DNA of 64,000 nucleotides from contig JAGNXB010000001.1 in the NCBI GenBank assembly GCA_017985675.1, positions 62,001-126,000 on the forward strand, given 5' to 3'. The translations under genes were made by a program, and so were the position numbers. Below the pieces are notes generated by a model. That model made no database searches and had not been told where the DNA came from. It was given only the letters and a program-made list of their open reading frames with translations. Below are positions 23,485 through 41,774 of the stretch, in pieces. Positions within the stretch are counted from its first letter, which is position 1, and every line of letters begins with the position of its first letter. Origin of the DNA: Saprospiraceae bacterium. Its GTDB lineage: Bacteria > Bacteroidota > Bacteroidia > Chitinophagales > Saprospiraceae.

Positions 23485-23897
23485 AAATACCTGGGTTGAA
23501 GTAGGTCCAAAAGCACCAAAGGAGCAGTACAAGTTCTGCCTGTTTGTTTGTCCAGAAAGGCAAGTGTCACACTTCCTGTTGTAAGTAATCGATCACTTTC
23601 GTTGAATATTTCACTCAGAAAGGTCATCGTTTTTTCAGGTAGTTCCTTGATACGTGTGCGCACAGTCAATAAATCATCATACCTGGCAGGCCGGAGATAT
23701 TGAAGTTGGAGCTCAATGACGGGCATAAGGACACCTCTTTCTTCGAGATCGCGATAGGTAAATCCTAAAGCACGCATAGCTTCAGCCCGGCCGACTTCAA
23801 GATACTGTGCATAATGACCATAATAGACAACGCCCATTTGATCGGTTTCACTATACCGTACCCGCACTTGTGTGTCATAACAGTACATAATCATCAA
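23481..23897 (-). CDS. YbgC/FadM-type acyl-CoA thioesterase
   Basis: 138-residue single hotdog domain. The conserved active-site stretch RYSETDQMGVVYYGHYAQYLE carries D19 and H28, the catalytic Asp-x8-His pair of 4-hydroxybenzoyl-CoA thioesterase-like enzymes. Substrate unknown; relatives hydrolyse short or medium acyl-CoAs. The start overlaps the arginine deiminase stop by 4 bases and its stop overlaps the YihY start by 4 bases. Confidence 0.88.
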   Translation of the reverse strand: MMIMYCYDTQVRVRYSETDQMGVVYYGHYAQYLEVGRAEAMRALGFTYRDLEERGVLMPVIELQLQYLRPARYDDLLTVRTRIKELPEKTMTFLSEIFNESDRLLTTGSVTLAFLDKQTGRTCTAPLVLLDLLQPRYL

Positions 23898-25165
23898 ATT
23901 GGATCACGACGAAGGGGACATGTCATGCAATGTGAGCCGCCGCGAGCTCGGGACAATTCATTTGAAGGTAAGGTGATAATCGTTTTTGTTAGTGACGCAG
24001 GGTCAAGCAATCCCGCATGGACATCCTTTAAAAAGTCTTCGGCATGCAGGATCGTATAGCCATTTTCCTTGAACGCCAATTCTGTAACCGGATTGCGATC
24101 GTAGGTCAATGCTACTCCGGGACGCAACGCCACCAGGTTGCAACCATCGGTCCACTGCTCACGCTCCTGGTACGGACTTTCACCTTTTCCACTTAAGATG
24201 AATCGCATGTTTGGGTCGATTTCTTCATGAAAAAATTCACGAATACTTCCATATTCTCGGTAATCGCCATTGCGGGCATACACCAGTACATTTGAGGCCA
24301 AGCCATCGACGACAATGGGTTTGAATGCAGCTATATCATGATGGTCAATCTGAGTAAATATGGTGTCAATGTGCATGTACGACCTGTCCTGGGGAATATT
24401 TACCTGAACAACATGGTCGATAACGCCCTTTTCAAAAAGGGCATTTTTTAGTAAATGAATAGAGTGTGCATTTGTCCGCTCACTGCAACCGACCAGCAGA
24501 TAATGGTTGTTAATGACCATGACATCACCTCCCTCAACCGAAACGATTTCACCGCGCTTAGAGGGCGGAAACTCATCGACATGGTTCAAATTGATGATTT
24601 TACCATCCTCGCGCAAGCTGCGAAACATTGGATGGGACCAGCAAATGAATCGGGTGAGAAAATTTTCCCTGTACCGGGCTGATTTTGCTGCTTTCGTTAT
24701 AAGGACATGGTCATTGATGGTAACAGCTAAATCCCTTGTGAAGATGAAGTTGGGAATAGGGTCAAACAATATCAAATCATTTGATGCCAGGTAGCCGGTT
24801 ATCAATGTTTCGGCCAAATCTTCATTGGGCAGGTCATGCAATAAGGAGAAATAACTTTTTGGTAATTCCTCATAATCAATGATCATATTGATTACTTCTT
24901 TGCGGGTAACAGGGTCCTCCCGGAGGGATTCTAAAAGTAGGTCGTGACTTTCCATCACCTGATCGGCACCTAAAAAGGCGCGAAGTACGGCAGAAAATAC
25001 ATCGTGTTCCTTTTGCATCTGGGGCAGATGCACAATGTCATCAAAGAGTAGCTCTGACGATTTTTTTGGGCTGACGCGAGCGATTCCTGCATCAGGGCGA
25101 TGGATCATGACACGCCGTAGTGTGCCTATTTCAGAATTAACATGAATTTCAGTTAGCTGTGTCAT
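23894..25165 (-). CDS. arcA: Arginine deiminase
   Basis: Converts arginine to citrulline and ammonia. 423 residues with all guanidino-modifying signatures: substrate/Asp motif DPIPNFIFTRDLAV, EGGDVMVINNHYLLVG, MHIDTIFTQID with the active-site His, and the nucleophilic cysteine C413 in RGGSHCMTCPLRR. The start at 25165 (MTQLTEIHVNSEIG) is preferred over an in-frame ATG 48 bases upstream: a perfect -7 element lies just before it and the extra residues match nothing. No ornithine carbamoyltransferase, carbamate kinase or antiporter gene is nearby. First gene of the coupled trio with the thioesterase and YihY. Confidence 0.9.
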   Translation of the reverse strand: MTQLTEIHVNSEIGTLRRVMIHRPDAGIARVSPKKSSELLFDDIVHLPQMQKEHDVFSAVLRAFLGADQVMESHDLLLESLREDPVTRKEVINMIIDYEELPKSYFSLLHDLPNEDLAETLITGYLASNDLILFDPIPNFIFTRDLAVTINDHVLITKAAKSARYRENFLTRFICWSHPMFRSLREDGKIINLNHVDEFPPSKRGEIVSVEGGDVMVINNHYLLVGCSERTNAHSIHLLKNALFEKGVIDHVVQVNIPQDRSYMHIDTIFTQIDHHDIAAFKPIVVDGLASNVLVYARNGDYREYGSIREFFHEEIDPNMRFILSGKGESPYQEREQWTDGCNLVALRPGVALTYDRNPVTELAFKENGYTILHAEDFLKDVHAGLLDPASLTKTIITLPSNELSRARGGSHCMTCPLRRDPI

Positions 25166-25171
25166 AGAATG

Positions 25172-25179
25172 CAAAGTTA
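25172..25179 (-). promoter_or_regulatory. -7 element TAACTTTG of the arginine deiminase operon
   Basis: Exact TAnnTTTG on the minus strand, 6 bases before the ATG at 25165. It lies downstream of an alternative ATG at 25213, so it argues for the shorter protein. No clear -33 TTG. Confidence 0.5.
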
Positions 25180-25272
25180 ATCTTCCTCCTTGGTTGAATG
25201 TTATTCCTTCCATTCCTTTAACCGTAAAAAGGGATCATCTGACGGATTAATGCTATCGTTTGTCTACCTTTG

Positions 25273-25303
25273 TTGGAGTGGTTCGCCTACCAGTTTACAT
25301 TTG
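25273..25303 (+). promoter_or_regulatory. Consensus promoter of the ABC/coiled-coil operon
   Basis: TTG (25273-25275), a 20-base spacer and TACATTTG (25296-25303), an exact match to the Bacteroidota primary-sigma consensus. A second TACCTTTG occurs at 25265-25272. The ATG at 25312 is 8 bases after the -7 element, giving an extremely short leader. Confidence 0.65.
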
Positions 25304-25311
25304 CATGACGT

Positions 25312-25986
25312 ATGAGTATTCTTAAAAACCTCAAGTCTTTATTTATTGAAGAGACCGAGGCTGCCGGGCAGTCAGATGTCGTTTCTTCTCCCAAAGACGA
25401 TCAAGCCACAGCGGTTGTGCCAACGCCTGAAGCACTTCTGGACAACGAACAAAATAGTTCTGCTAAACAAGTGGTGGATCATCGGTTTCTAGATACCCTC
25501 CTTGCTGCGATGGAGGCAAAAAATCAGGAAGGCTTTGATTATCTGGAGTTCAGACAAGCGCTTAAGTCTTTGGATAAAATGGCTTTTGACGAAGCGACAA
25601 AGTTCAAAACAGCTTTTGCCATGGCGCAATCTATGAAAGCCACGCCAGACCACTTGACCAACACCGCAAAACAGTATTTGGGTGTCCTGCAACAGGAAGA
25701 AAACAAATTCACTATAGCTTTAAAAGCGCAAGAGGAAAACCAGGTGCATGCCCGTGAAGTTCGCCTGGCGGATCTTGACAAATCTGTAGCTCAAAAACAG
25801 CAGGAAATTGAAAAATTGATGGCAGAGATTACCACTTTCAGGGATGAATCCACAAAGTTGCAATCTGAATTGTCGTCTGTTCACCAAAAAATCAGTGTTA
25901 CCAGAGACCGATTTACATTTACCTATTCGTTCCTATTGCAGGAGATCAAGGCGGATATTGAAAAAATGCAACAATACCTGAAATAA
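25312..25986 (+). CDS. Soluble coiled-coil protein, first gene of the ABC operon
   Basis: Not recognised as a named family. 224 residues, no signal peptide or membrane segment. Residues 1-50 are polar and probably disordered (SSPKDDQATAVVPTPEALLD). Residues 57-125 look helical with a conserved-looking segment DHRFLDTLLAAMEAKNQEG. Residues 125-224 are a long heptad-rich coiled coil (REVRLADLDKSVAQKQQEIE). It lies 10 bases before a membrane-bound coiled-coil gene, with ABC importer genes beyond. A cytoplasmic scaffold or regulator interacting with the neighbour's coiled coil is plausible but unproven. Confidence 0.7.
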   Translation: MSILKNLKSLFIEETEAAGQSDVVSSPKDDQATAVVPTPEALLDNEQNSSAKQVVDHRFLDTLLAAMEAKNQEGFDYLEFRQALKSLDKMAFDEATKFKTAFAMAQSMKATPDHLTNTAKQYLGVLQQEENKFTIALKAQEENQVHAREVRLADLDKSVAQKQQEIEKLMAEITTFRDESTKLQSELSSVHQKISVTRDRFTFTYSFLLQEIKADIEKMQQYLK

Positions 25987-25996
25987 TTATTGGCTT

Positions 25997-27034
25997 ATGA
26001 CAACTATGGAATCGTTCAAACCCAAATCGTTTTGGCAACGCCCCGAAGGGGTGACCGGAGCGCTGTTTCTGGGCGGATTGCTGCTGGGTGGTGGCTATTT
26101 GCTGTTTAAATTCCTGCCGGCGATTATTGCCTTGACTTCAAACTTGCTCTATCTGGGGGTTATTTTGATGGCTCTTGCGGCATTAATTTATGTTGTCCTT
26201 GACCCCAAAACCAGAAACCTGGTTTGGTACATGTACAAAAGTGTGATGCGCTGGTTAACAGGAATATTTGTCCAGATTGATCCTATAGGCATACTTAAAT
26301 CGTATGTCGAGGATCTAAAAAACAATTTGGGCAAAATGAACAAACAAATCACGTTGCTGCGTGGTCAGATGCACAAGCTGAAAGAAATCATACTGAACAA
26401 CCAGCGTGATATTCAATCCAACCTGCGCATGGCAAGCAAAGCGAAGGAAACGGACATGCAAGCTATGGTCGTTCTAAAATCGCGCAAGGCAGGTCGCCTT
26501 AAAGAGTCCAATGTCAAACTCGAGGATCTGTATCGTAAAATGGAGATCCTATACCGCGTCCTAGGTAAAATGTATGAAAATTCTGAAATACTTCTGGAAG
26601 ATATTACGGATCAGGTAAAAGTAAAGGAACAGGAGCGCAAGGCCATTCATGCCAGCCACTCAGCGATGAAGTCGGCTATGAATATTATTAGCGGTAATTC
26701 TGATCAGCGGTATATGTTCGATATGGCTTTGGAGGCTATTGCTGATGATGTATCCCAAAAAGTGGGAGAAATGGAACGCTTCATGGAAATGTCATCCAAC
26801 TTTATGGATAGTGTCGATCTTCAAAACGGTGTATTCGAAGAAGAAGGCTTGGCTATGTTGGAGAAATGGGAAAAGGAAGGCGTATCTATGTTGTTAGGAA
26901 ACGAAAAGGAAACCCTCCTGCTCAAAGCGGCAAATGAATCCGATGTGCTTGATTTGAATGCACCCATTGCCAAACCGATGGAACGGTCACATGCCGCACG
27001 TGATAACCAATATGACAGTTTTTTTGAATCCTGA
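25997..27034 (+). CDS. Membrane-anchored coiled-coil protein, faintly PspA-like
   Basis: 345 residues. Two hydrophobic segments (about 20-40 and 46-66) are followed by a basic stretch, then long helices from about residue 95 to 270 (DPIGILKSYVEDLKNNLGKMNKQITLLRGQMHKLKEII). The pattern of that first helix resembles the start of PspA/IM30 domains, but no family assignment is certain. The C-terminus (about 290-345) is polar. It sits between the soluble coiled-coil gene and the solute-binding/OmpA fusion, with 10 and 15 bases of spacing, so co-expression with the transporter is very likely. Function unknown. Confidence 0.7.
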   Translation: MTTMESFKPKSFWQRPEGVTGALFLGGLLLGGGYLLFKFLPAIIALTSNLLYLGVILMALAALIYVVLDPKTRNLVWYMYKSVMRWLTGIFVQIDPIGILKSYVEDLKNNLGKMNKQITLLRGQMHKLKEIILNNQRDIQSNLRMASKAKETDMQAMVVLKSRKAGRLKESNVKLEDLYRKMEILYRVLGKMYENSEILLEDITDQVKVKEQERKAIHASHSAMKSAMNIISGNSDQRYMFDMALEAIADDVSQKVGEMERFMEMSSNFMDSVDLQNGVFEEEGLAMLEKWEKEGVSMLLGNEKETLLLKAANESDVLDLNAPIAKPMERSHAARDNQYDSFFES

Positions 27035-27049
27035 AAATAGCTTTTACCT

Positions 27050-28627
27050 ATGGCTCGCAGATTAACCACTTTTTCCAAACTACTGATCACCGTACTGATT
27101 GTAGGCGGATTTGTATTATTGGGCAACTATGTGTTGAACAAAACAGAATGGGGGAAATCCCTTAGAAATCAAGCCGATAGTGGTGGTGATTTCGGCAGTG
27201 ATGCATCAGATAAAAATAGCGCAGGTAAGGATGATGATGTACTTACCGTCCAATTGGTCACTTGGGGCGGTTATGCCCCTGGCCTTTATTTTAATGAAGG
27301 TGCTGAGGCAAGTACCAATTCCCGTTTTTTTAAGGAGTATGGCATTAAAGTCCGCTTTGTAAAAAATGACGATCTCATGGCAGCTCTTAATGCCTGGATT
27401 GCTGACGAATATGACGTACTTGTTCAGACGGCAGATGCATTCCCTTTATATACCTTTCCTGATGAGTTGAAACAATTTGAGCCTCAGGTATTTATGCAGG
27501 TTGACTGGTCCCGTGGCGGAGATGCGATCATTGCCAAACGAGGGATCAACTCGATCAATGATCTTAAAGGGAAGCGTATCGCCGTTACTGAGCCTGCCCC
27601 ATCGCAGACCTTGCTTGTAACGGCGCTTGAAGCCGCAGGATTGAATTACAAGGATGTCATCGTTGCTGCCGCGCAGGACCCTGTGGTTGCATCTCAGATG
27701 TTCAAAGCTCCGGACATTGATGCAGCTGTGGTATGGAGTCCTTTTGATGTAGAGGCAATCCGTGAAGTGCCGGGGTCCAAAGTACTTGTGAGTACTAAGG
27801 ACCAGTCGCATATTATTGCGGATATCTTTTTTGCGAAGGCTTCCTACATCAGAAACAACAAAGCGAAAATTCATAAATTTTATGAAGGCTGGATGAAGGC
27901 CGTTGCTGAACTGGAAAATACGCCTTCAAATCAGGAAAAAGCAGCCAAACATCTAGCGGCCTTCCTGGAATTTTCGGAAGATGATGCCAAGGGTGCAATG
28001 GCAAATGTACGTTGGACTACCCATGGAGACAACATGAACTTCTTTGGACTAAATTCGAATTACCGCGGTGTAAAAGGGGCTGATCTTTACGATAAAATGT
28101 CAAAAGTCTTTTTCGAACTTGGACAGGCGGACAAAATGGCGCCACCATGGAGAAATGTGATTTATACTGGAGCCGTCCAGGCGGCAGCAGCTTTATCAGG
28201 TCCTGGTTTTACAGCCGAAGAAACACCCGCATTCACACCTCCTACCGAATCTGAACGCAAAGCGCCAGCGCTTGCCAACAAACAGGTGAGTATCAATTTT
28301 GATTCTGGAAAGTTCACCCTCTCCGAAAACGCTAAGACAATTATTGATTTACAATTTGCAGATGTTGCCCGTTCTTTTGCTACGCTGCGCGTGCGCATAG
28401 AAGGTAATACCGATAATGTTGGTGGAAGAGCAATGAATGTAGAGCTTTCTAAAAAAAGAGCCCAAGCAGTAGCTGATTACCTCAGGCAGACATACGGCCT
28501 GGATAAAAACCGGTTTGTTATTGTCGGAAATGGTCCTGACAAGCCGGTCGCAGGTTGCGAAAGCAATAAAACCGAGTCTTGCAAAGCGAAGAATCGAAGA
28601 ACTGATTTCCAATTGATCGGCTCCTAA
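27050..28627 (+). CDS. Membrane-anchored NMT1/SsuA-like solute-binding protein fused to OmpA domain
   Basis: 525 residues in three parts. One N-terminal membrane anchor at about 10-28 (LLITVLIVGGFVLLGNYVL) has no lipobox or clear cleavage site. A solute-binding domain spans about 65-375, with the nitrate/sulfonate/taurine type opening VQLVTWGGYAPGLYFNEG and a hinge region INDLKGKRIAVTEPAPSQTL. An OmpA-like peptidoglycan-binding domain runs about 410-525 (INFDSGKFTLSENAKTI, IEGNTDNVGGRAMNVELSKKRAQAVADYL, KNRRTDFQL). If the anchor is retained, one chain would tie the inner membrane to the cell wall with the binding domain between. The ligand is unknown. Permease and ATPase follow directly. Confidence 0.88.
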   Translation: MARRLTTFSKLLITVLIVGGFVLLGNYVLNKTEWGKSLRNQADSGGDFGSDASDKNSAGKDDDVLTVQLVTWGGYAPGLYFNEGAEASTNSRFFKEYGIKVRFVKNDDLMAALNAWIADEYDVLVQTADAFPLYTFPDELKQFEPQVFMQVDWSRGGDAIIAKRGINSINDLKGKRIAVTEPAPSQTLLVTALEAAGLNYKDVIVAAAQDPVVASQMFKAPDIDAAVVWSPFDVEAIREVPGSKVLVSTKDQSHIIADIFFAKASYIRNNKAKIHKFYEGWMKAVAELENTPSNQEKAAKHLAAFLEFSEDDAKGAMANVRWTTHGDNMNFFGLNSNYRGVKGADLYDKMSKVFFELGQADKMAPPWRNVIYTGAVQAAAALSGPGFTAEETPAFTPPTESERKAPALANKQVSINFDSGKFTLSENAKTIIDLQFADVARSFATLRVRIEGNTDNVGGRAMNVELSKKRAQAVADYLRQTYGLDKNRFVIVGNGPDKPVAGCESNKTESCKAKNRRTDFQLIGS

Positions 28628-28637
28628 AACCGATTTT

Positions 28638-29792
28638 ATGGGCATTTTTGAACTGAGAGGGTCACTCACAAGACAACAAAGCCTGTTGCTTTTTGCCATC
28701 GGTGTAGGTTTGCTTCTGGGTATTTGGCACTTGTTAACTACCGGGAGTGCTCCTGTATTGTCTTCGGCCATTTTACCCCACCCTCAGCGAGTGCTCTTTG
28801 CTTTCCAGGATCTTTATCTGGATAATGACATCATTAAAAATGCCTGCCATTCCATTGGGATTAATCTGGCAGGTTATCTGGAGGCTATTTTTATAGCTCT
28901 CCCGCTGGGTTTTTTGATAGGTTTGATGCCCATATTCAGAGGTGCATTCCAGCGTCCGTTAGAATCTATCCGGTATATTCCACTTACGGCCGTGACGGGA
29001 TTATTTATCGTTTGGTTTGGCGTAGGTACCTCCATGAAAGTCCACTTTCTTGCTTTTGGTATCTTAATATACCTCTTACCTGTAATCATACAACGTATTG
29101 ATGAAGTGGAAGATGTATTTTTAAAAACGGTTTACACTTTGGGCGCTACTAACTGGCAAACGATCCGTACGGTCTACTGGCCCTCTGTAGTATCACGGCT
29201 CTCTGATGATATCCGTGTGCTGACAGCGATTTCATGGACCTACATCATTGTTGCCGAAAATATTGATAGTACACAAGGTGGACTAGGAGCGCTGATTTGG
29301 CGAGTGGGGCAACGTCAGGGGCGCATGGATAAAGTATTCGCATTACTTATTCTGATTGTACTTATCGGGGTACTGCAAGACCGTTTGTTCAAACGAATGG
29401 ACCGTTTGCTTTTTCCCTATAAATATCAGGCGTCCTTGCACGGCAAGCATGGTACGCCAACAGACGGGAGCCAGAAAGGTATTTTCAGTGTCTTACTAAG
29501 TTATATGCTGGATGTTGTTGGTGGCCATCAATTTCGCCATGTCCTTCATCTGATTCTGGATTATATTTTAAAAGCTACTTGGTGGATAGTCCTCGCAGCT
29601 TATTGGGTATTAGCAGTCAATGAATGGACTGGACTTGTCTTTCCTGTTCAACTCATTCATAATTTGTTTGGGGACACGACGTGGGCTATCCATACAATCA
29701 TGTTCCTATTGACCGCCTACCAGGTTTGGAAGTTTCGGGAATCCCACCTGGGTCGATATGCCCGCCTTGTAACTGAAAAACAAATCGCATAA
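28638..29792 (+). CDS. ABC transporter permease with extra C-terminal membrane region
   Basis: Inner-membrane permease of the SsuC/TauC/NrtB type. A six-helix BPD_transp_1 core spans about residues 15-265. The EAA loop that docks the ATPase is DEVEDVFLKTVYTLGATNWQTIRTVYWPSVV (about 155-185). Usual members end near residue 260. This one continues for about 115 residues: a hydrophilic linker (about 270-300) and at least two further hydrophobic segments (HVLHLILDYILKATWWIVLAAY and a later one near 360). It starts 10 bases after the solute-binding/OmpA gene and ends 9 bases before the ATPase gene. Confidence 0.88.
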   Translation: MGIFELRGSLTRQQSLLLFAIGVGLLLGIWHLLTTGSAPVLSSAILPHPQRVLFAFQDLYLDNDIIKNACHSIGINLAGYLEAIFIALPLGFLIGLMPIFRGAFQRPLESIRYIPLTAVTGLFIVWFGVGTSMKVHFLAFGILIYLLPVIIQRIDEVEDVFLKTVYTLGATNWQTIRTVYWPSVVSRLSDDIRVLTAISWTYIIVAENIDSTQGGLGALIWRVGQRQGRMDKVFALLILIVLIGVLQDRLFKRMDRLLFPYKYQASLHGKHGTPTDGSQKGIFSVLLSYMLDVVGGHQFRHVLHLILDYILKATWWIVLAAYWVLAVNEWTGLVFPVQLIHNLFGDTTWAIHTIMFLLTAYQVWKFRESHLGRYARLVTEKQIA

Positions 29793-29801
29793 CCAGATTG
29801 T

Positions 29802-30632
29802 ATGGCGATGAAAATGAAGGATGATCCCAACTTGCCCAATATCATTGCCCTAAAAGGCATTAACCAAAGTTATGATGGTGGGCAATCTTATATTATTAAA
29901 GATCTCGATTTGTTAGTGGAGGATAAACCTGCTCAAGGGCAATTTGTTGTTATTTTAGGGATGTCTGGTTCAGGAAAATCGACGTTGTTGCGCTACATCG
30001 CGGGTCTGCAGGAACCTACTTCAGGTGAAGTGCTTTTAAATGGAAGGAAGGTTGGTGCTGACAACCGAGCCAGCATGGTCTTTCAACAGTATTCTTCTCT
30101 TCCCTGGATGAGTGTGCTGGATAATGTAGGACTACCCCTATTGTATAAGGGTATGGGTCGGTCAGAACGAGATGATCGCTCCATGGAAATGATTCGTCTT
30201 GTCGGTCTTGAAGGGCATGAAAGCAAGTTTGCACAATACCCGGCATTGTCCGGAGGCCAATTACAACGTGTGGCCATTGCAAGAAGCCTACTGGCTAATT
30301 CATCTGTTATTCTGATGGATGAGCCCTTTGGTGCGTTGGACGTAAAAACCCGATTGCAAATGCAGGACTTGTTATCTAAAATTTGGAATGAAATTCACCC
30401 AACTGTTGTTTTCGTGACACATGACATTTCAGAAGCCATATATCTTGGCGATGAAATTTACATTATGAGTTCACCACCGGCCAACTTCGTCGAACACATT
30501 CATATTGATCTTCCCCTTTATCGTAATCGGGAACTGAAACGAAGTAAAGCGTTTATGGATCTGGTTCATCATATTGAAGACAGAATGGTTGAAATTGCAG
30601 AACAAACGCAAAATGAAAATGCACAATTATAA
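29802..30632 (+). CDS. ABC transporter ATPase (SsuB/TauB type)
   Basis: 276-residue ATP-binding subunit. Walker A GMSGSGKST at 53-61, Q-loop VFQQYSSLPW, signature LSGGQLQRVAIARSLL from about 149, Walker B VILMDEPFGALD, and the switch histidine in VFVTHDISEA. This is the nitrate/sulfonate/taurine importer subclass that pairs with the preceding permease. The C-terminal 45 residues are helical and polar. Several ATGs lie close together at 29802-29817; the first is used. The 3' end overlaps the next gene by about 20 bases. Confidence 0.92.
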   Translation: MAMKMKDDPNLPNIIALKGINQSYDGGQSYIIKDLDLLVEDKPAQGQFVVILGMSGSGKSTLLRYIAGLQEPTSGEVLLNGRKVGADNRASMVFQQYSSLPWMSVLDNVGLPLLYKGMGRSERDDRSMEMIRLVGLEGHESKFAQYPALSGGQLQRVAIARSLLANSSVILMDEPFGALDVKTRLQMQDLLSKIWNEIHPTVVFVTHDISEAIYLGDEIYIMSSPPANFVEHIHIDLPLYRNRELKRSKAFMDLVHHIEDRMVEIAEQTQNENAQL

Positions 30633-31851
30633 GAACACCTTTTTTTGGGCTCTCATGTTTAGTTGGGGCGTCCCTGTTTTTTGTCAAAATAGCCCATCTG
30701 TTCACGCGGTGGAAACGGATGAACAGAAAACAGTTGAAATGGTATGGGGAGACTTAAAATTACCATTGACGGCAACCGCCAGCTCAACGTACTTTAAAGT
30801 CAAAAAAGAAATCACCCGGGAAGAGGCGATGAAATTGATAACACAGCCCATCCAATTTTTACTTAACGGAAAACCCTATTTCCTTTCAGGCCTGATCGCC
30901 TCTACCAACGCCCGAAAATCAGCTTTGACTGCACCAAATGATACAGTGGTTGTTGGAGCTAAACCAAAAGCAAATAGGGATACTGAGCAACAGGAAGTAA
31001 GGACATCCTCCCAACCACTCATCGGAGGGCTTCTCCTGGATTCATTGGTAGATCAAAAAAAGTACATCTTTAATATTGAAACTCAAAAAGACCTTGCGAC
31101 TTTTTTGAAAGAAGGTAACAGAATCACATTTGGAACTAGTCGAAACCGGCCAGGTTTGATGGTGAATATTGACATTGATATTTTTGATCCATATGAACAG
31201 TTTAGGCCCAGATATTATGTGCCGCCCATGTCATACATTAAGCCAGATATATCTCCCTGGCAATGGGCTAGTGTGCCGGGAAGGAAGAAGGGTATTGTAC
31301 GCTATGATCCAAATCATGCAACGCATGTTAAAATAATCGCAGCTTATAGTAATGAAGAAAAATATGAGTTAATTCCGATTCCCGGATTTCAGACTGGTGC
31401 ACATTATGTCGGCGAAGAGGACTTTATCGTGCCTCTAAAAGACGTTTCCTCCAAAGACACCTTGCGCAAATCTCCTGTGCTGGATGCTTATAAAGGTTAC
31501 GATATGATTACCGAAATGTCTGTTGGCTGGTCAATACAATGGGGTAGTGTGGAGGTAGGTCACAAAGGGAAATACTGCAAACCAGAAGAGTTTAATGTGG
31601 CGAACCTTGAAAAGATGATGGTGAAACGAGGCCAGCAGCTTTTGCCAATTGAACAGGTTTTAATAACCATTACGCAAAAGGAAGGAAATGTGAGCCAATA
31701 CCTTATTAGTGGACAGGAGCCTGAAGTCTGGCAGACTATCTTCCAGAACCTTCCGCCTACTACATCGATTTACTTTGAAGAAATCATCGTTAGGGAGGCG
31801 GATGAAAAGCTTTACCGGGTCCAGATTCCATTTATTCTCAATGTTTGGTAG
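30613..31851 (+). CDS. Secreted protein of unknown function, possible GldM-like C-terminal domain
   Basis: About 412 residues. I chose the ATG at 30613 (MKMHNYKNTFFWALMFSWG) so that a signal peptide ending near FCQ leads the protein; another ATG follows at 30619. The mature part has two regions of alternating beta pattern separated by a polar linker (about 110-140). The end, TTSIYFEEIIVREADEKLYR followed by VQIPFILNVW, resembles the closing strand pattern of the GldM/PorM periplasmic domains, but the match is by eye and weak. It overlaps the ABC ATPase gene, so it is probably the last gene of that operon. No terminator was seen in the 140 bases that follow. Confidence 0.6.
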   Translation: MKMHNYKNTFFWALMFSWGVPVFCQNSPSVHAVETDEQKTVEMVWGDLKLPLTATASSTYFKVKKEITREEAMKLITQPIQFLLNGKPYFLSGLIASTNARKSALTAPNDTVVVGAKPKANRDTEQQEVRTSSQPLIGGLLLDSLVDQKKYIFNIETQKDLATFLKEGNRITFGTSRNRPGLMVNIDIDIFDPYEQFRPRYYVPPMSYIKPDISPWQWASVPGRKKGIVRYDPNHATHVKIIAAYSNEEKYELIPIPGFQTGAHYVGEEDFIVPLKDVSSKDTLRKSPVLDAYKGYDMITEMSVGWSIQWGSVEVGHKGKYCKPEEFNVANLEKMMVKRGQQLLPIEQVLITITQKEGNVSQYLISGQEPEVWQTIFQNLPPTTSIYFEEIIVREADEKLYRVQIPFILNVW

Positions 31852-32023: not shown

Positions 32024-32048
32024 TCCGATGTTTCAACCAACCCGTGGC

Positions 32049-35000
32049 ATGAAAAAATGGTACTTCCTTGCACTCCTATTGATATTTAGCATTGGCATGC
32101 CTTTGTTTGGCCAGGATTGGCCATCCATGATGAGCAATCCAAAAGAGAATTTTTACGATGTCCAGAATGCGTTCAATACGTATTGGACAGGTAAGGATAC
32201 AAAACAAAAAGGAAAAGGCTGGAAGCCATTCAAACGCTGGGAATGGTTTACAGAGCAACGGGTTTATCCATCAGGGAATCGTGACCAAATGGAAACGGCC
32301 ATGAGCACCTATTACGCTCAGCAACTTAATAAACCAGAAAATAACGAGCGGGGCAGTTCCTCAAGTGACTGGACATTCCTTGGCGCTTCTACCGTTCCTT
32401 CCAATGGAGGAGGTGCGGGTCGTTGCAATTTCATACGTTTTGATCCTAATGATCCCAATATACTTTGGACAGGTTCACCAGGTGGGGGACTTTGGAAATC
32501 CACAAATGCCGGAGCAACCTGGGTTAATTGGAACACGGATTACTTGCCCGTTATAGGTTGCACGGACATTGCCATTGTGCCCACAAATACAGACACCATG
32601 TATCTGGCTACCGGTGATGGATTTGCTAGTGATACTTATACCATTGGCGTTTTAAAAACAACGGATGGCGGTCTTACCTGGAATCCTACGGGCCTAAACT
32701 GGAACGTAACAGATACAAAGCTCATCCGAAAACTTTTACTCCATCCCGATAATCATCAAATCCTCATCGCGGGCACTTCTGATGGGATATATCGGACCGT
32801 TGATGGTGGTGACAATTGGGCTAAAGTGCAGGGAGGTGATTTTTATGACCTAGAATTCAAACCCGGCGACCCAACTATTGTATATGCTGGCTCCAATCGT
32901 TTTTTGCGTTCTACAAATGGTGGTATTTCCTGGTCACAGGTATCCTCTGGTCTTGCTCCTCAAAATCAGGTGCGACGATTAGCTATTGCTGTCACTCCTG
33001 CAAATCCTGAATTTGTTTACCTGCTGGCAGCGGAATCTTCTTCAAATGGCTACAAGGGCATGTACAGATCAGAGAATAGTGGCGGTGCTTTTGTATTGCA
33101 ATCTGAAACCCCAAATTTGTTGGGTTGGGCAAGTGATGGTTCCGATGATGGTGGCCAGGGATGGTACACTTTGTCCATTGCCGCTTCACCTACTAATCCA
33201 AACGCTGTGGCTGTGGGTGGAGTAAATATCTGGCGGTCGACAACCGGAGGAAGTACTTGGGGATTAAATGCCCACTGGTGGGGGGATCAAGCGCCTTATG
33301 TTCATGCCGACATTCATGATATGGCCTATTTGCCAGGAAGTGCTAATATCTATTATGCCGCCACAGATGGTGGTGTTTTCCGCACTACCGATAATGGAAA
33401 TTCTTGGACGGACCTGAGTAATGGGTTGGAAATAGCTCAGCTTTATAAAATTGGATCTTCCGCTACAAATGAAGAACTTGTTTTATCCGGTTGGCAGGAC
33501 AACGGTACAAATCGGCTTCTGGGCTCAGAATGGCAACGGGTTATAGGTGGTGATGGTATGGAATGTATCGTAGATCACTCCGATGCTGATGTCATGTATG
33601 GTGCTTTGTATTATGGAAATATCCGCAAGTCCACAGACGGTGGTAACGACTTTGATGGAATTGTCGATTCAGATGGGGATGGCGTCAATAGCGGAGGCTT
33701 GTGGGTCACACCCTATATAATGCATCCTACAAATAGCCAAACCTTGCTGGTAGGCAAAGACGAACTCTATCGCTCCATAGATGGTGGTTATAATTGGGAA
33801 CAGTTGGGAAGCATTGGAGGAGCTGGATTAATACGCGCTATAGCATATGCCCCTTCTAATCCTGATGTGATCTATGCAGCCCGCTCAAATTCTATCCATG
33901 TGTCCACAGACGGAGGGGCTTCATTTAGCAATGTTAGTACTGGACTTCCGAATCTCATCATCACCTATATTGCGGTATCCAGTATTAACCCTGATCGGGT
34001 GTACATCACCTATAGTGGATACATGGGAGCAGAAAAGGTGTTTGTTTCCAATAATAGGGGATCCGTTTGGTCCAATTATTCAACAGGCCTTCCTAACCTA
34101 CCGGTAAATTGTATTGAATACCAGAATGGATCCAATAATGGGGTCTATGCTGGTACAGATGTAGGCATTTATTATAGAGATGCCACTTTGTCATCCTGGG
34201 TTCCTTTCAGCAATGGCCTTCCAAATGTTGTTGTTAATGAGTTGGAAATTCACTACAATTCTTCAAAAATCAGAGCGGCGACTTATGGTAGAGGTTTGTG
34301 GGAATCGCCCTTGTACAGTGGAGCTCCGATTGTACCTGTCGCCAGTTTTACCTCTAATCCAGCCATCAATTGTGTGGGATCACCTGTGTATTTTAGTAAC
34401 CTAAGTGAAAACAATCCCCTACAGGTGAGTTGGACATTTGAAGGTGGAACCCCTGCTACATCTACTCAATATAATCCAGAAGTGACTTGGCTGACCGCTG
34501 GCACTTATACTATCTCACTCACTGTTACAAATGTTGCCGGCTCACATACGGAAACCAAAACAATTGAAATAAAGGCCATACCAGAAGTGACCATTGTTCC
34601 GGAAAATCCCACCATTTGTAAAGGAGAAAGTATTTCGCTGACGGCATCCGGCGCCAATACGTTTTTCTGGACAAATAATCTTGGCGGAGGCGCTGTTAAA
34701 ACAGTGACACCAAACGCCACTATTACTTATACAATTACTGGGAATAACGGAGGATGTACAAGCAAATCCACTGTGACGGTGTCCGTCAATGCTTTGCCTC
34801 AGGTTTTTATTAGTTCCTCTACAGATTCCGTTTGTGTTGGCCAGCCCGTTGAGTTGCTGGTCGAAGGTGCTACCCAATACGAGTGGGCAGATGGATTAGG
34901 CGCCTCGGAGACCGTGACCGTCAACCCTTTAGACATAGATACATTTTCGGTTAACGGAACGGATGATAATGGGTGTAGTGCTACTGCTTCTATTGTCATT

Positions 35001-36656
35001 ACAACAAAACCTCTTCCTCCATTAACTGTCTCCCCTGTGTCAGCGATTATATGTCAGGGAGACTTCCTCCAGCTTGAGGCGGATGGGGCAGCCTTTTATG
35101 AGTGGAGCCATGGATTTGGCACCAATTCATCCATTATTCTGGACCCATTGGAAAGTACGACAATCCAGGTGAAGGGAACTGCTGAAAATACATGCACATT
35201 GACATTGGATATACCCATCACCGTAAATAAAAAGCCCGATTTAATTTTGACCGGCGCTGATGACCCCATTTGCGAGGGAGAATCCACGTCTCTCTTTGTC
35301 GATGGTGCTTCTACCTATATTTGGACGGACAATCTTGGAACGGATCCTTCTGTTTTTGTTAATCCACTGACAACCTATACCTATTTTGTAACTGGTTTTT
35401 CTGCGGAGGGTTGTTCAAATCTTGATTCAGTTACAGTGACTGTTAATCCATTGCCAGATATCATCTTAATTGCATCACAATCTGCGATTTGTGAGGGCGA
35501 GCAGGTTGCCATTTTAGCTGAAGGCGCGGTTACTTTCCTTTGGGGAGGTGGTTTAGGTACAGATGCTGAAATCTTTGTTTCTCCTGCGAGTACAACGGAA
35601 TTCGGAGTGACCGGATATAGTCTCGAAGGGTGTTTAAAAGAGGAGTCAATCAGCATTATTGTTCATCCATTACCCGTCATTAATCTCGAACCCACCGCAC
35701 CCATTATTTGCAAAGATGGAGAAATTACGATTACAGCCTCAGGGGCGTCTGCCTATCTATGGAATGGTGGTCTGGGCGAAAGTGCAAGTGTTATCTTGCA
35801 ACCATCAGAAACATCTTCATATCAGGTCACCGGAATTAGCACCGAAGGATGTGTGGATAGTCAAATGATTGAAGTTCGGGTTCATGTCATCCCTGTATCT
35901 ACTCAGCCATGGCCCGACACACAATGTAATTCAGGGTTATACCAGGTAACAACCTCCGCTGAGATTACAGCGCTATCTTTTCCGGCTTCCTGGGTTGTTG
36001 ATACTAGCCAAATGCCCCACTTCTTTCAAATATCAAGTGCGCCACAGGGAACTGCATTTAGTCTGACCTTGGCAGACAGTTTGCTTACTTGCCCCGTCTC
36101 ATTAGAAATCAATCCTGATATAGAGACAAATCCATCCATACCACTGGTCTACGATCATTGTAAGGAAGAGATAACGGTTCTTTCTAATTGTGATTCTGGG
36201 GGAGGTGACTGGTACCGTTTTTCACGGGCTACCGGGCAGATTGAGCTCATCCAATCGAGTGCAGGCACTTTGTTGGAAGGCATTGATATTACCACACGTT
36301 CACAATTTGGTTATATGTATCATTGTACCTCACCATGTGGTGGTACAGCCTTTTTAGCTCCAATACAAGAGGGCGGATTTCCACCGTGTATAGAAGCCGG
36401 CACATTCAAACTCTTCATCGCACCGAACCCGGCATCAGGGGAGTTTACATTGGAGATTCAACACTTTGACGCGTCGGATTTGATCGTACGGATTTGGGAT
36501 ATCTCTGGCCGTCTTATTGATGAAAAGAAAATTTTACATCCTGGAGGGATAACACTTTTACCTATGACTTCATCCTCATGGGCATCAGGTATGTATGTTG
36601 TTAGTGTAATGGATGCAAAGGACAAAGAAGTGCAGAAGCAACTTATCATTCATTAA
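32049..36656 (+). CDS. Giant secreted beta-propeller / PKD / Ig-repeat protein with T9SS sorting domain
   Basis: 1535 residues from the chosen start (MKKWYFLALLLIFSIGMPLFGQ, a signal peptide; an ATG 21 bases upstream is less likely). Residues about 85-765 are a sortilin-like propeller with Asp-box motifs (KSTNAGATWVN, KTTDGGLTWNP, RTVDGGDNWAK, RTTDNGNSWTDL). A PKD domain follows at about 765-845 (ASFTSNPAINCVGSPVYFSN, YNPEVTWLTAGTYTISLTV). Six Ig-like repeats of about 73 residues come next (separate entry). The last 80 residues are a Por-type sorting domain (FIAPNPASGEFTLEIQ ... GMYVVSVMDAKDKEVQ), predicting cell-surface export. Likely adhesin or matrix protein; no catalytic motif seen. Confidence 0.9.
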   Translation: MKKWYFLALLLIFSIGMPLFGQDWPSMMSNPKENFYDVQNAFNTYWTGKDTKQKGKGWKPFKRWEWFTEQRVYPSGNRDQMETAMSTYYAQQLNKPENNERGSSSSDWTFLGASTVPSNGGGAGRCNFIRFDPNDPNILWTGSPGGGLWKSTNAGATWVNWNTDYLPVIGCTDIAIVPTNTDTMYLATGDGFASDTYTIGVLKTTDGGLTWNPTGLNWNVTDTKLIRKLLLHPDNHQILIAGTSDGIYRTVDGGDNWAKVQGGDFYDLEFKPGDPTIVYAGSNRFLRSTNGGISWSQVSSGLAPQNQVRRLAIAVTPANPEFVYLLAAESSSNGYKGMYRSENSGGAFVLQSETPNLLGWASDGSDDGGQGWYTLSIAASPTNPNAVAVGGVNIWRSTTGGSTWGLNAHWWGDQAPYVHADIHDMAYLPGSANIYYAATDGGVFRTTDNGNSWTDLSNGLEIAQLYKIGSSATNEELVLSGWQDNGTNRLLGSEWQRVIGGDGMECIVDHSDADVMYGALYYGNIRKSTDGGNDFDGIVDSDGDGVNSGGLWVTPYIMHPTNSQTLLVGKDELYRSIDGGYNWEQLGSIGGAGLIRAIAYAPSNPDVIYAARSNSIHVSTDGGASFSNVSTGLPNLIITYIAVSSINPDRVYITYSGYMGAEKVFVSNNRGSVWSNYSTGLPNLPVNCIEYQNGSNNGVYAGTDVGIYYRDATLSSWVPFSNGLPNVVVNELEIHYNSSKIRAATYGRGLWESPLYSGAPIVPVASFTSNPAINCVGSPVYFSNLSENNPLQVSWTFEGGTPATSTQYNPEVTWLTAGTYTISLTVTNVAGSHTETKTIEIKAIPEVTIVPENPTICKGESISLTASGANTFFWTNNLGGGAVKTVTPNATITYTITGNNGGCTSKSTVTVSVNALPQVFISSSTDSVCVGQPVELLVEGATQYEWADGLGASETVTVNPLDIDTFSVNGTDDNGCSATASIVITTKPLPPLTVSPVSAIICQGDFLQLEADGAAFYEWSHGFGTNSSIILDPLESTTIQVKGTAENTCTLTLDIPITVNKKPDLILTGADDPICEGESTSLFVDGASTYIWTDNLGTDPSVFVNPLTTYTYFVTGFSAEGCSNLDSVTVTVNPLPDIILIASQSAICEGEQVAILAEGAVTFLWGGGLGTDAEIFVSPASTTEFGVTGYSLEGCLKEESISIIVHPLPVINLEPTAPIICKDGEITITASGASAYLWNGGLGESASVILQPSETSSYQVTGISTEGCVDSQMIEVRVHVIPVSTQPWPDTQCNSGLYQVTTSAEITALSFPASWVVDTSQMPHFFQISSAPQGTAFSLTLADSLLTCPVSLEINPDIETNPSIPLVYDHCKEEITVLSNCDSGGGDWYRFSRATGQIELIQSSAGTLLEGIDITTRSQFGYMYHCTSPCGGTAFLAPIQEGGFPPCIEAGTFKLFIAPNPASGEFTLEIQHFDASDLIVRIWDISGRLIDEKKILHPGGITLLPMTSSSWASGMYVVSVMDAKDKEVQKQLIIH
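34584..35894 (+). repeat. Six tandem Ig-like repeats (about 218 bases each) inside the propeller/PKD gene
   Basis: Each 72-74 residue unit has the plan P-x-ICxGE-x-LxAxGAxxYxWxxGLG ... VxPxxTTTYxVTG ... GCxxxxxVTVxVxPLP. The cysteines near positions 11 and 58 of each unit are conserved. The units diverge at DNA level, so they are old duplications rather than recent slippage. They probably form a stalk. Confidence 0.85.
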
Positions 36657-40490: not shown

Positions 40491-41774
40491 CTAATATTCG
40501 TATTTCCCCTTCCAAATGTCTTTTAACAAATGGTGGTATTTATCTTCTGATGGATTTTCTCCCGGCGTATAAAGCAAAGTTTGTTTTAATGATTCCGGCA
40601 AATAATCCTGCGGTGCAAAATGACCGGGGAAGTCGTGGCTGTATTGGTAGTTTTTTCCATAGCCCAGCTCCTTCATCATCTTCGTCGGTGCATTTCGCAA
40701 ATGTAAAGGTACAGGTTGATCCCCGGATTGACGTGTAAGAGCAAGTGCTTTTTCTATTGCGATATAGGCCGAATTGCTTTTTGGACTACAGGACAGATAA
40801 ATGGCGATCTGAGAAAGCGGGATTCTTGCTTCTGGCCAACCAATTTTATGAACAGCATCAAAACAAGTTGTAGCCAGGAGTAAGGCATTAGGATTGGCCA
40901 GGCCAATATCTTCTGAAGCCAGGATGATAAGTCGACGCGCAATAAAGAGAGGATCCTCACCACCTTCAATCATCCGGGCCAAATAATAAACAGCTGCATT
41001 GGGGTCACTGCCTCGAATTGATTTGATAAATGCCGAAATGATATCATAGTGGATTTCTCCTTGTTTGTCAAATTGCGCAATGCGGCGCTGAACGATTTCC
41101 TGCACCATTGCATTGGTAATAACCAGTTCCTTGCCCGGACCAGTGTCCATGCTGACCAGTTCCAAAAGGTTGTAGAGCTTACGTCCATCACCGCCGGACA
41201 ATTGAATCAAGGCTTCGTCTTCCTGTATTCGTATTGTTTTTGTTTGGAGGATTAAATCATCCTTTAGGGCTTTTGCCATCATGCCCCTCAAATCGGCAAC
41301 GCTTAATGGTTCGAGGATATAAACCTGGCATCTGGAAAGAAGGGCATTGTTTACCTCGAAAGAGGGATTTTCTGTGGTAGCTCCAATTAATGTTACGAGA
41401 CCTTTTTCCACTGCACCCAGCAAGGCATCTTGCTGACCTTTGTGAAACCGGTGTATTTCATCGATGAATAAAATCGGAGCATGCTGACCTTCCTGGATCA
41501 TTGTTTGCGCCTGATCCAGACTACTTCTGATTTCTTTGACGCCGCTTTGTATGGCGCTTAAAGCAATGCAATCCCGACCTGATTCCTTGGCAATAATCCG
41601 TGCCAATGTTGTTTTGCCAACACCAGGAGGCCCCCAGAATATCATGGAAGGCAAATTGGCATTTTGAATGGCTTTATATAATACCGCCCCAGGCGCAACG
41701 AGATGAGCCTGGCCGGCAAAATCTGCTAATACCTCGGGACGCATCCGTTCGGCTAAGGGGGTAGTGGTCAACAT
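40491..41774 (-). CDS. rarA: Replication-associated recombination protein RarA (MgsA)
   Basis: AAA+ clamp-loader-like ATPase acting at stalled replication forks. 427 residues. The opening [21 protein letters not shown], Walker [16 protein letters not shown], Walker B/sensor [21 protein letters not shown] and sensor 1 [14 protein letters not shown] are standard. The C-terminal tetramerisation part includes [34 protein letters not shown] and the closing [21 protein letters not shown]. Its own promoter lies upstream; acyl-CoA dehydrogenase follows. Confidence 0.95.

Follow-up and report, generated by a model that had tools for sequence, protein, structure and literature searches.

A conserved five-gene variant of the predicted PspA-transporter system in Saprospiraceae and other Bacteroidota families

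It is in a 64,000-nucleotide stretch of a Saprospiraceae draft genome (contig JAGNXB010000001.1, positions 62,001 to 126,000, hereafter the window; the source assembly, GCA_017985675.1, is 3.65 Mb and 94% complete) that we describe five adjacent forward-strand genes, named p1 to p5, which form a conserved unit encoding an ATP-binding cassette (ABC) importer together with two coiled-coil proteins, one of which, p2, is likely a distant PspA/IM30-like membrane protein. This unit is a real, conserved variant of the predicted PspA-transporter system, a kind already known in outline from what the consulted parts of Ravi et al. 2024 (PMC11237479) describe. Our preferred explanation, which we hold tentatively and at a little under an even chance, is that p1–p5 function as one, with a PspA-type scaffold on the inner membrane holding a solute importer. 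The cluster lies within six forward-strand open reading frames (ORFs) spanning 25312–31851 of the window, separated by gaps of 10, 15, 10 and 9 bases and then by a 20-base overlap, just as an original prediction made from the letters alone had described them. That prediction took all six genes as one operon; the conserved part of it is p1–p5, and the sixth gene, p6, is lineage-specific.

The cluster is more than chance, because its gene order recurs in distant families. A distant p2 query matched 26 of 295 genomes of the class. Three of them belong to the family, 8 have strong matches (E ≤ 2e-34) and are spread over seven other families, and 15 have weak matches; the 8 strong loci plus 1 weak locus were opened. 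All five genes, complete and in the order p1-p2-p3-p4-p5, were found in 6 of the 8 strong other-family genomes, representing six families (loci L137, L175, L176, L177, L178 and L179), with two extra ORFs separating p2 from p3 in L178, where p3 lies 2.0 kb away. As for the other strong loci, L173, a congener of L137, has p1–p4 and no p5 in the opened stretch, and L174 has p1-p2 plus a weak p3 match alone; the weak locus, L180, holds a lone p2-like gene. BLAST identity to the window proteins is 47–65% (35% for p1) in two of these families and about 22–33% in four. For p1, there was no BLAST hit between the L137 and window proteins, and that of L173 gave an E of 1.8; the gene in the p1 position of L137 nonetheless matches the p1 profile by hhalign at 96% (E 5e-9). 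The hidden Markov models (HMMs) used for the distant loci included the L137 sequences themselves (its p2 as L012), and the independent evidence is therefore that of BLAST and single-sequence hhalign.

We collected 80 named loci by p2 match and counted neighbours only at loci with room, that is, with enough sequence beside the gene. Upstream of p2, a p1 homologue was found no further than 700 bp away at 65 of 74 such loci; downstream, p3 was found no further than 700 bp away at 54 of 73. In a survey of 150 Saprospiraceae genomes, p2 matches occur in 142 (261 matches in total), and strong matches (E ≤ 2e-44 for p3 and E ≤ 3e-30 for p4) were found in 94 genomes for p3 and in 93 for p4, both together in 90, p3 or p4 alone in 4 and 3, and neither in 53; these genomes are related to one another, so that a Fisher value for the p3/p4 association is not a true probability, and at a looser search threshold p3 was matched in 150/150 genomes, through its OmpA part, and p4 in 103. 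The p2 gene lies within 1 kb of p3 in at least 80 of the 94 strong-p3 genomes, which bears out the earlier claim of an importer linked to coiled-coil partners. Of the 90 genomes having both, 66 have p4 no more than 1.5 kb from p3, and 68 no more than 6 kb; the remaining 22 were scored as distant, a class that includes contig breaks (in G184, the p4 start is at the end of the p3 contig). In 17 of these 22, p2 still adjoins p3; the p4 site was opened in 8 of the 22, and none has p3 there, while p4-p5 adjoin in 7, the p4 place of the eighth (L132) being hidden by ORF picking. In G201 and G208, p3 and p4 share a contig but are separated by about 185 and 330 kb. Flavilitoribacter nigricans, a culturable relative, carries p1-p2-p3 and, at a separate site, a p4-p5 pair.

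Several observations weigh against a joint function of the five genes, and some of them also feed its strongest competitor, in which a shared operon merely brings together a NitT/TauT-type importer of the ordinary kind and a pair of genes for membrane protection. Each half is found without the other: a strong p3 is missing from 50 of the 142 genomes with p2, and 47 of those 50 lack p4 too; second p1-p2 pairs without p3 are present in 5 opened copies (L025, L029, L034, L036 and L038); and, conversely, related p3-p4-p5 sets without adjoining p1-p2 were seen in 5 opened Saprospiraceae loci (L122–L126), having an OmpA-fused protein of 595–598 residues, a permease of 258–265 residues and an ATPase, an importer that by length resembles that of distant families (L137, L173, L177–L179). 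In addition, p4-p5 are often located elsewhere, with p4 within 1 kb after p3 in just 21 of 47 named loci with room; one genome, G272 (L136:8551-12024), has p1, p3, p4 and p5 in order without a p2 match; and p2 is rare outside Saprospiraceae, with matches in 4 of 148 phylum-wide genomes, 3 of these in the family. Most public records of close p2 relatives are labelled Saprospiraceae or kin. The original prediction had asked whether the coiled-coil genes stand mostly apart from the transporter genes, and the answer is divided: in genomes with a strong p3 they usually do not, but many p1-p2 copies do stand apart. What speaks against two independent modules is that the same five-gene order persists at about 22–33% identity in four other families, and that the p3-linked state is clustered on p2 trees, with 9 changes as compared with about 21 in shuffles. 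This is consistent with an ancient linkage that was lost several times, though the root is the midpoint only and one outgroup row, L174, is unlinked. These trees are quick results; the first lacked L174 and scored L178 as linked, the second corrects both and omits the long-branch L034, and the change counts are equal. The second copies L025, L029, L036 and L038 group together or sit low in the Saprospiraceae part of the trees. We consider independent modules unlikely, although they remain the most serious competitor. Since p1-p2 can occur without the importer, the latter would be a client or an input of the coat rather than its sole engine. The second p1-p2 pair of L036 adjoins genes for glycerol-3-phosphate dehydrogenase and YidC.

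The importer half is the one identified by Pfam. Gene p3 (27050–28627, 525 residues) encodes an NMT1-type solute-binding protein (46.0 bits, cut-off 20.5) with an N-terminal anchor and a fused OmpA-like domain (PF00691, 65.0 bits, cut-off 27.2); p4 (28638–29792, 384 residues) encodes a permease with BPD_transp_1 at residues 87–256 (44.3 bits, cut-off 26.4); and p5 (29802–30632, 276 residues) encodes an ABC ATPase (ABC_tran, 98.1 bits, cut-off 25). With all three domains above their Pfam cut-offs, p3–p5 is, by domain content, a type I ABC importer of the NitT/TauT class. In the window proteins, the Walker A, signature and Walker B motifs of p5 and the EAA-type coupling loop of p4 are intact, scored with patterns that we take to be those of the ABC motifs, and Walker A reads GRSGIGK[ST] in the distant-family ATPases. 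As to what would be transported, p3 scores at best 82.1 bits against a substrate-defined NCBIfam cut-off of 333.9, and p4 and p5 fall under every substrate cut-off shown; the best solved structures matching p3 are taurine- and sulfonate-binding proteins, and the single solved permease matched by p4 is the nitrate permease 8w9m (E 5e-4).

The binding protein has features that SsuABC, TauABC and NrtABCD, the NitT/TauT importers sharing its NMT1 domain, BPD_transp_1 permease and ABC ATPase, do not have, namely the N-terminal anchor and the OmpA fusion. The predicted transmembrane anchor covers residues 11–29 (27080–27136), from hydropathy and conservation; a direct reading of the sequence shows no lipobox there, and M1, L5, T6, S9 and K10 show at least 95% conservation across 57 sequences, which is not what a cleaved signal peptide would be expected to show. 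In the binding domain, W72–Y75, D152–D158 and W229–P231 are at least 95% conserved in the same 57 sequences and probably line the cleft. The OmpA-like domain at residues 417–507 (28298–28570), which is the putative wall-binding domain that the original prediction had correctly read in this protein, carries the motif TDNVGGRAMNVELSKKRAQAV, an Asp/Arg pattern that is presumably the peptidoglycan-ligand motif of OmpA-like domains and that is present in the window p3 and in 7 of 7 distant p3 examined. The permease, in turn, has a C-terminal extension at about residues 270–384, earlier described as an added membrane domain; the extension is indeed there, but it is moderately hydrophobic (best 19-residue mean 1.59, residues 309–327), varies among Saprospiraceae copies and is missing in L060, L062, L075 and L137, and the distant-family permeases have 259–265 residues. 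A 563-residue permease homologue at L082:12671-14359 has a long insertion after its first segment that looks cadherin-like by eye.

The same proteins could be arranged as a sensor, in which ligand occupancy or wall tension at p3 passes via the ABC core to the p1-p2 coat, switching it between assembled and disassembled states, with net import being secondary. The wall-binding domain on p3 would suit such a role, and so would the persistence of p3 beside p2 in most of the genomes where p4 is distant; on the other hand, a strong p3 is rarely without p4 (4 of 94 genomes), and the catalytic motifs of p5 and the coupling loop of p4 are intact in the window, as for a working importer, and we accordingly judge the sensor to be rather improbable.

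The other half of the unit includes p2 (25997–27034, 345 residues), a membrane-anchored protein with a predicted transmembrane hairpin at residues ~19–68 (26051–26200, from hydropathy), a PspA-like region at residues 76–280 or 76–223, depending on the alignment (26222–26836), and a C-terminal tail motif, NQYDSFFES (27005–27031), whose pattern [YF]xx[LFM][FL] is shared by 63 of 63 distinct p2 sequences, as against 3 of 988 internal 14-residue pieces. Against a profile of 30 Bacteroidota PspA proteins (the longest ORF at 30 of 49 PspA matches, with the PspA match confirmed inside 30/30), a p2 profile scored 96.3% by hhalign (E 2e-9), with reversed controls at 8% and 1.4%, and against PspA rows trimmed to the PspA match it scored 88.7% (E 2.6e-6), with reversed controls at 0.8% and 0.6%. 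The alignment begins opposite the PspA N-terminal helix and places the DP motifs of both together. Distant p2 proteins match PspA directly: that of L137 matches PspA_IM30 (PF04012) at E 3.5e-7, with 30.5 bits by hmmscan and 33.1 in another search, which is the best PF04012 score seen among p2 relatives and still under the gathering score of 33.9, and that of L173 matches our custom-built PspA HMM at E 4e-9.

Set against this kinship, the window p2 matches no Pfam model at E ≤ 1 and so lies below the PF04012 cut-off (33.9 bits), a PF04012 search of the window's genome gave no PspA_IM30 match, fold searches with p2 did not single out PspA over BAR domains, and a Saprospiraceae-only p2 profile scored 93.9% against PspA untrimmed, falling to 47.6% (E 2e-4) on trimmed rows. 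One could then argue, as that last fall and the habit of helical proteins of matching many folds at similar Z would allow, that p2 is a generic membrane-anchored coiled coil of merely PspA-like composition, but the reversed controls keep the composition and lose the score, the DP motifs align, and the distant proteins match PspA without intermediaries, all of which makes this explanation improbable. We thus take p2 as likely a distant PspA/IM30-like membrane protein, as suggested by these alignments. The AlphaFold2 model of p2 has a predicted local distance difference test (pLDDT) score of 66.5. The original description of p2 as a membrane coiled coil holds as far as it goes, though it missed the likely PspA kinship, and with this kinship the coiled-coil subunits of the importer take on another meaning. 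In bacteria, the ESCRT-III superfamily is represented by PspA and Vipp1. As compared with PspA and Vipp1 (IM30), p2 aligns from residue 76 onwards and adds the predicted hairpin and the C-terminus ending in the conserved motif, besides its score under the PF04012 cut-off.

Its upstream partner p1 (25312–25986, 224 residues) is a soluble coiled-coil protein whose AlphaFold2 model (pLDDT 82.9, predicted template modelling score 0.52) has an N-terminal KNLKSLF motif followed by a low-confidence or disordered linker, then by three short helices and, at the C-terminus, a long one; under a strict pattern, the KNLKSLF-type motif is present in 52 of 70 p1 sequences. By hhalign, no PspA kinship of p1 was detectable (4–6%), and on this comparison p1 is a separate family, not detectably PspA. 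In the Pfam search of the window proteins, none of p1, p2 and p6 reached a cut-off.

If the five proteins do work together as a scaffolded importer, p2 would sit in the inner membrane by its two-helix hairpin, with its coiled coil laid on the cytoplasmic face, and would polymerise as PspA and Vipp1 do, while p1 would bind or regulate the p2 coat. The p3 protein would span from the inner membrane to the peptidoglycan and hand a small solute to p4-p5. The purpose of such a complex may be to keep uptake working at a stressed membrane patch, or else to report from there.

In the parts consulted, Ravi et al. 2024 (PMC11237479) list operons of PspA/Snf7-transmembrane proteins with an AAA+ ATPase, an ABC ATPase, a permease and a PBPB-OmpA protein, propose a membrane remodelling linked to solute transport, and mention that Bacteroidetes have a third coiled-coil gene (CBH24266.1) next to those for PspA and Snf7; what was seen of PMC9239133 places band-7 genes next to pspA in Bacteroidota, and ABC transporters in the vicinity of pspC. 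The earlier proposal of an undescribed system is not upheld, because such operons are already listed there. The window shares with them the PspA/Snf7-like transmembrane protein, to the extent that p2 is kin to PspA, as well as the ABC ATPase, the permease and the PBPB-OmpA protein; it differs from the operons described in those parts of PMC11237479 in having no AAA+ gene in the operon (0 of 6 proteins) and in adding p1, a further coiled-coil protein with no detectable PspA kinship. The nearest AAA+ (PF00004) match on the window contig starts at window position 41313; in the 8 distant genomes, none of the matches listed lay closer than 20 kb to p2 except for a response regulator of the sigma-54 type in G072, about 6 kb from p2, Saprospiraceae loci beyond the window not having been searched. 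In the literature, we found no description of the AAA+-less form, which the supplementary tables of PMC11237479 may list, nor of the order of its five genes as shared by seven families (that of the window and six others), the joint occurrence of p3 and p4 with p4-p5 displaced or the p2 tail motif, and no experimental study of such a PspA-transporter operon was found.

Provided that p2 is PspA-like, p1–p5 would offer a defined set having no AAA+ gene in the operon and having a conserved partner, p1, and a conserved tail motif, in which the binding protein and the permease of the transporter are either both present or both missing in most genomes (90 and 53 of 150) and p2 is present in 142/150; the link of envelope protection to solute uptake thereby becomes testable through these five genes. 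A bolder idea, that of an ESCRT-III-like coat run by the importer, where, the operon having no AAA+ ATPase, ligand binding or contact with the wall at p3 would gate the cycle of the ABC ATPase, which would assemble and disassemble the p2 polymer via p1 and the conserved p2 tail, and where the importer, if this were true, would fill the place of Vps4 in other ESCRT-III systems, we regard as very improbable.

The sixth gene, p6 (30613–31851), encodes 412 residues from its ATG, or 425 from the TTG at 30574, overlaps p5 by 20 bases and has a signal peptide by eye. No Pfam family was found for p6 or for four homologues, and p6 relatives beside p5 are limited to 5 of the 80 named loci, 3 of these in close relatives and the other 2 with weak matches, so that p6 stands outside the conserved unit.

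Upstream of p1, two candidate -7 boxes are present on the forward strand, TACCTTTG at 25265–25272 and the pattern TTG-N20-TACATTTG at 25273–25303. The letters of the earlier consensus promoter are thus in place, but the pattern TTG-N20-TACATTTG gave 4 matches in the window as compared with 2.4 expected from shuffles, no better than chance, and a stricter pattern gave 2 as compared with 1.8. Two close relatives keep a different -7-like box, which lies about 30 bases farther upstream. The cluster is preceded by a divergent gene of 439 residues (23894–25213), 98 bases from p1, with an arginine deiminase look by eye, and is followed after a 176-base gap by an exported repeat protein of 1542 residues (32028–36656), in which BNR-like and PKD-like repeats and a sorting-like C-terminus were recognised by eye.

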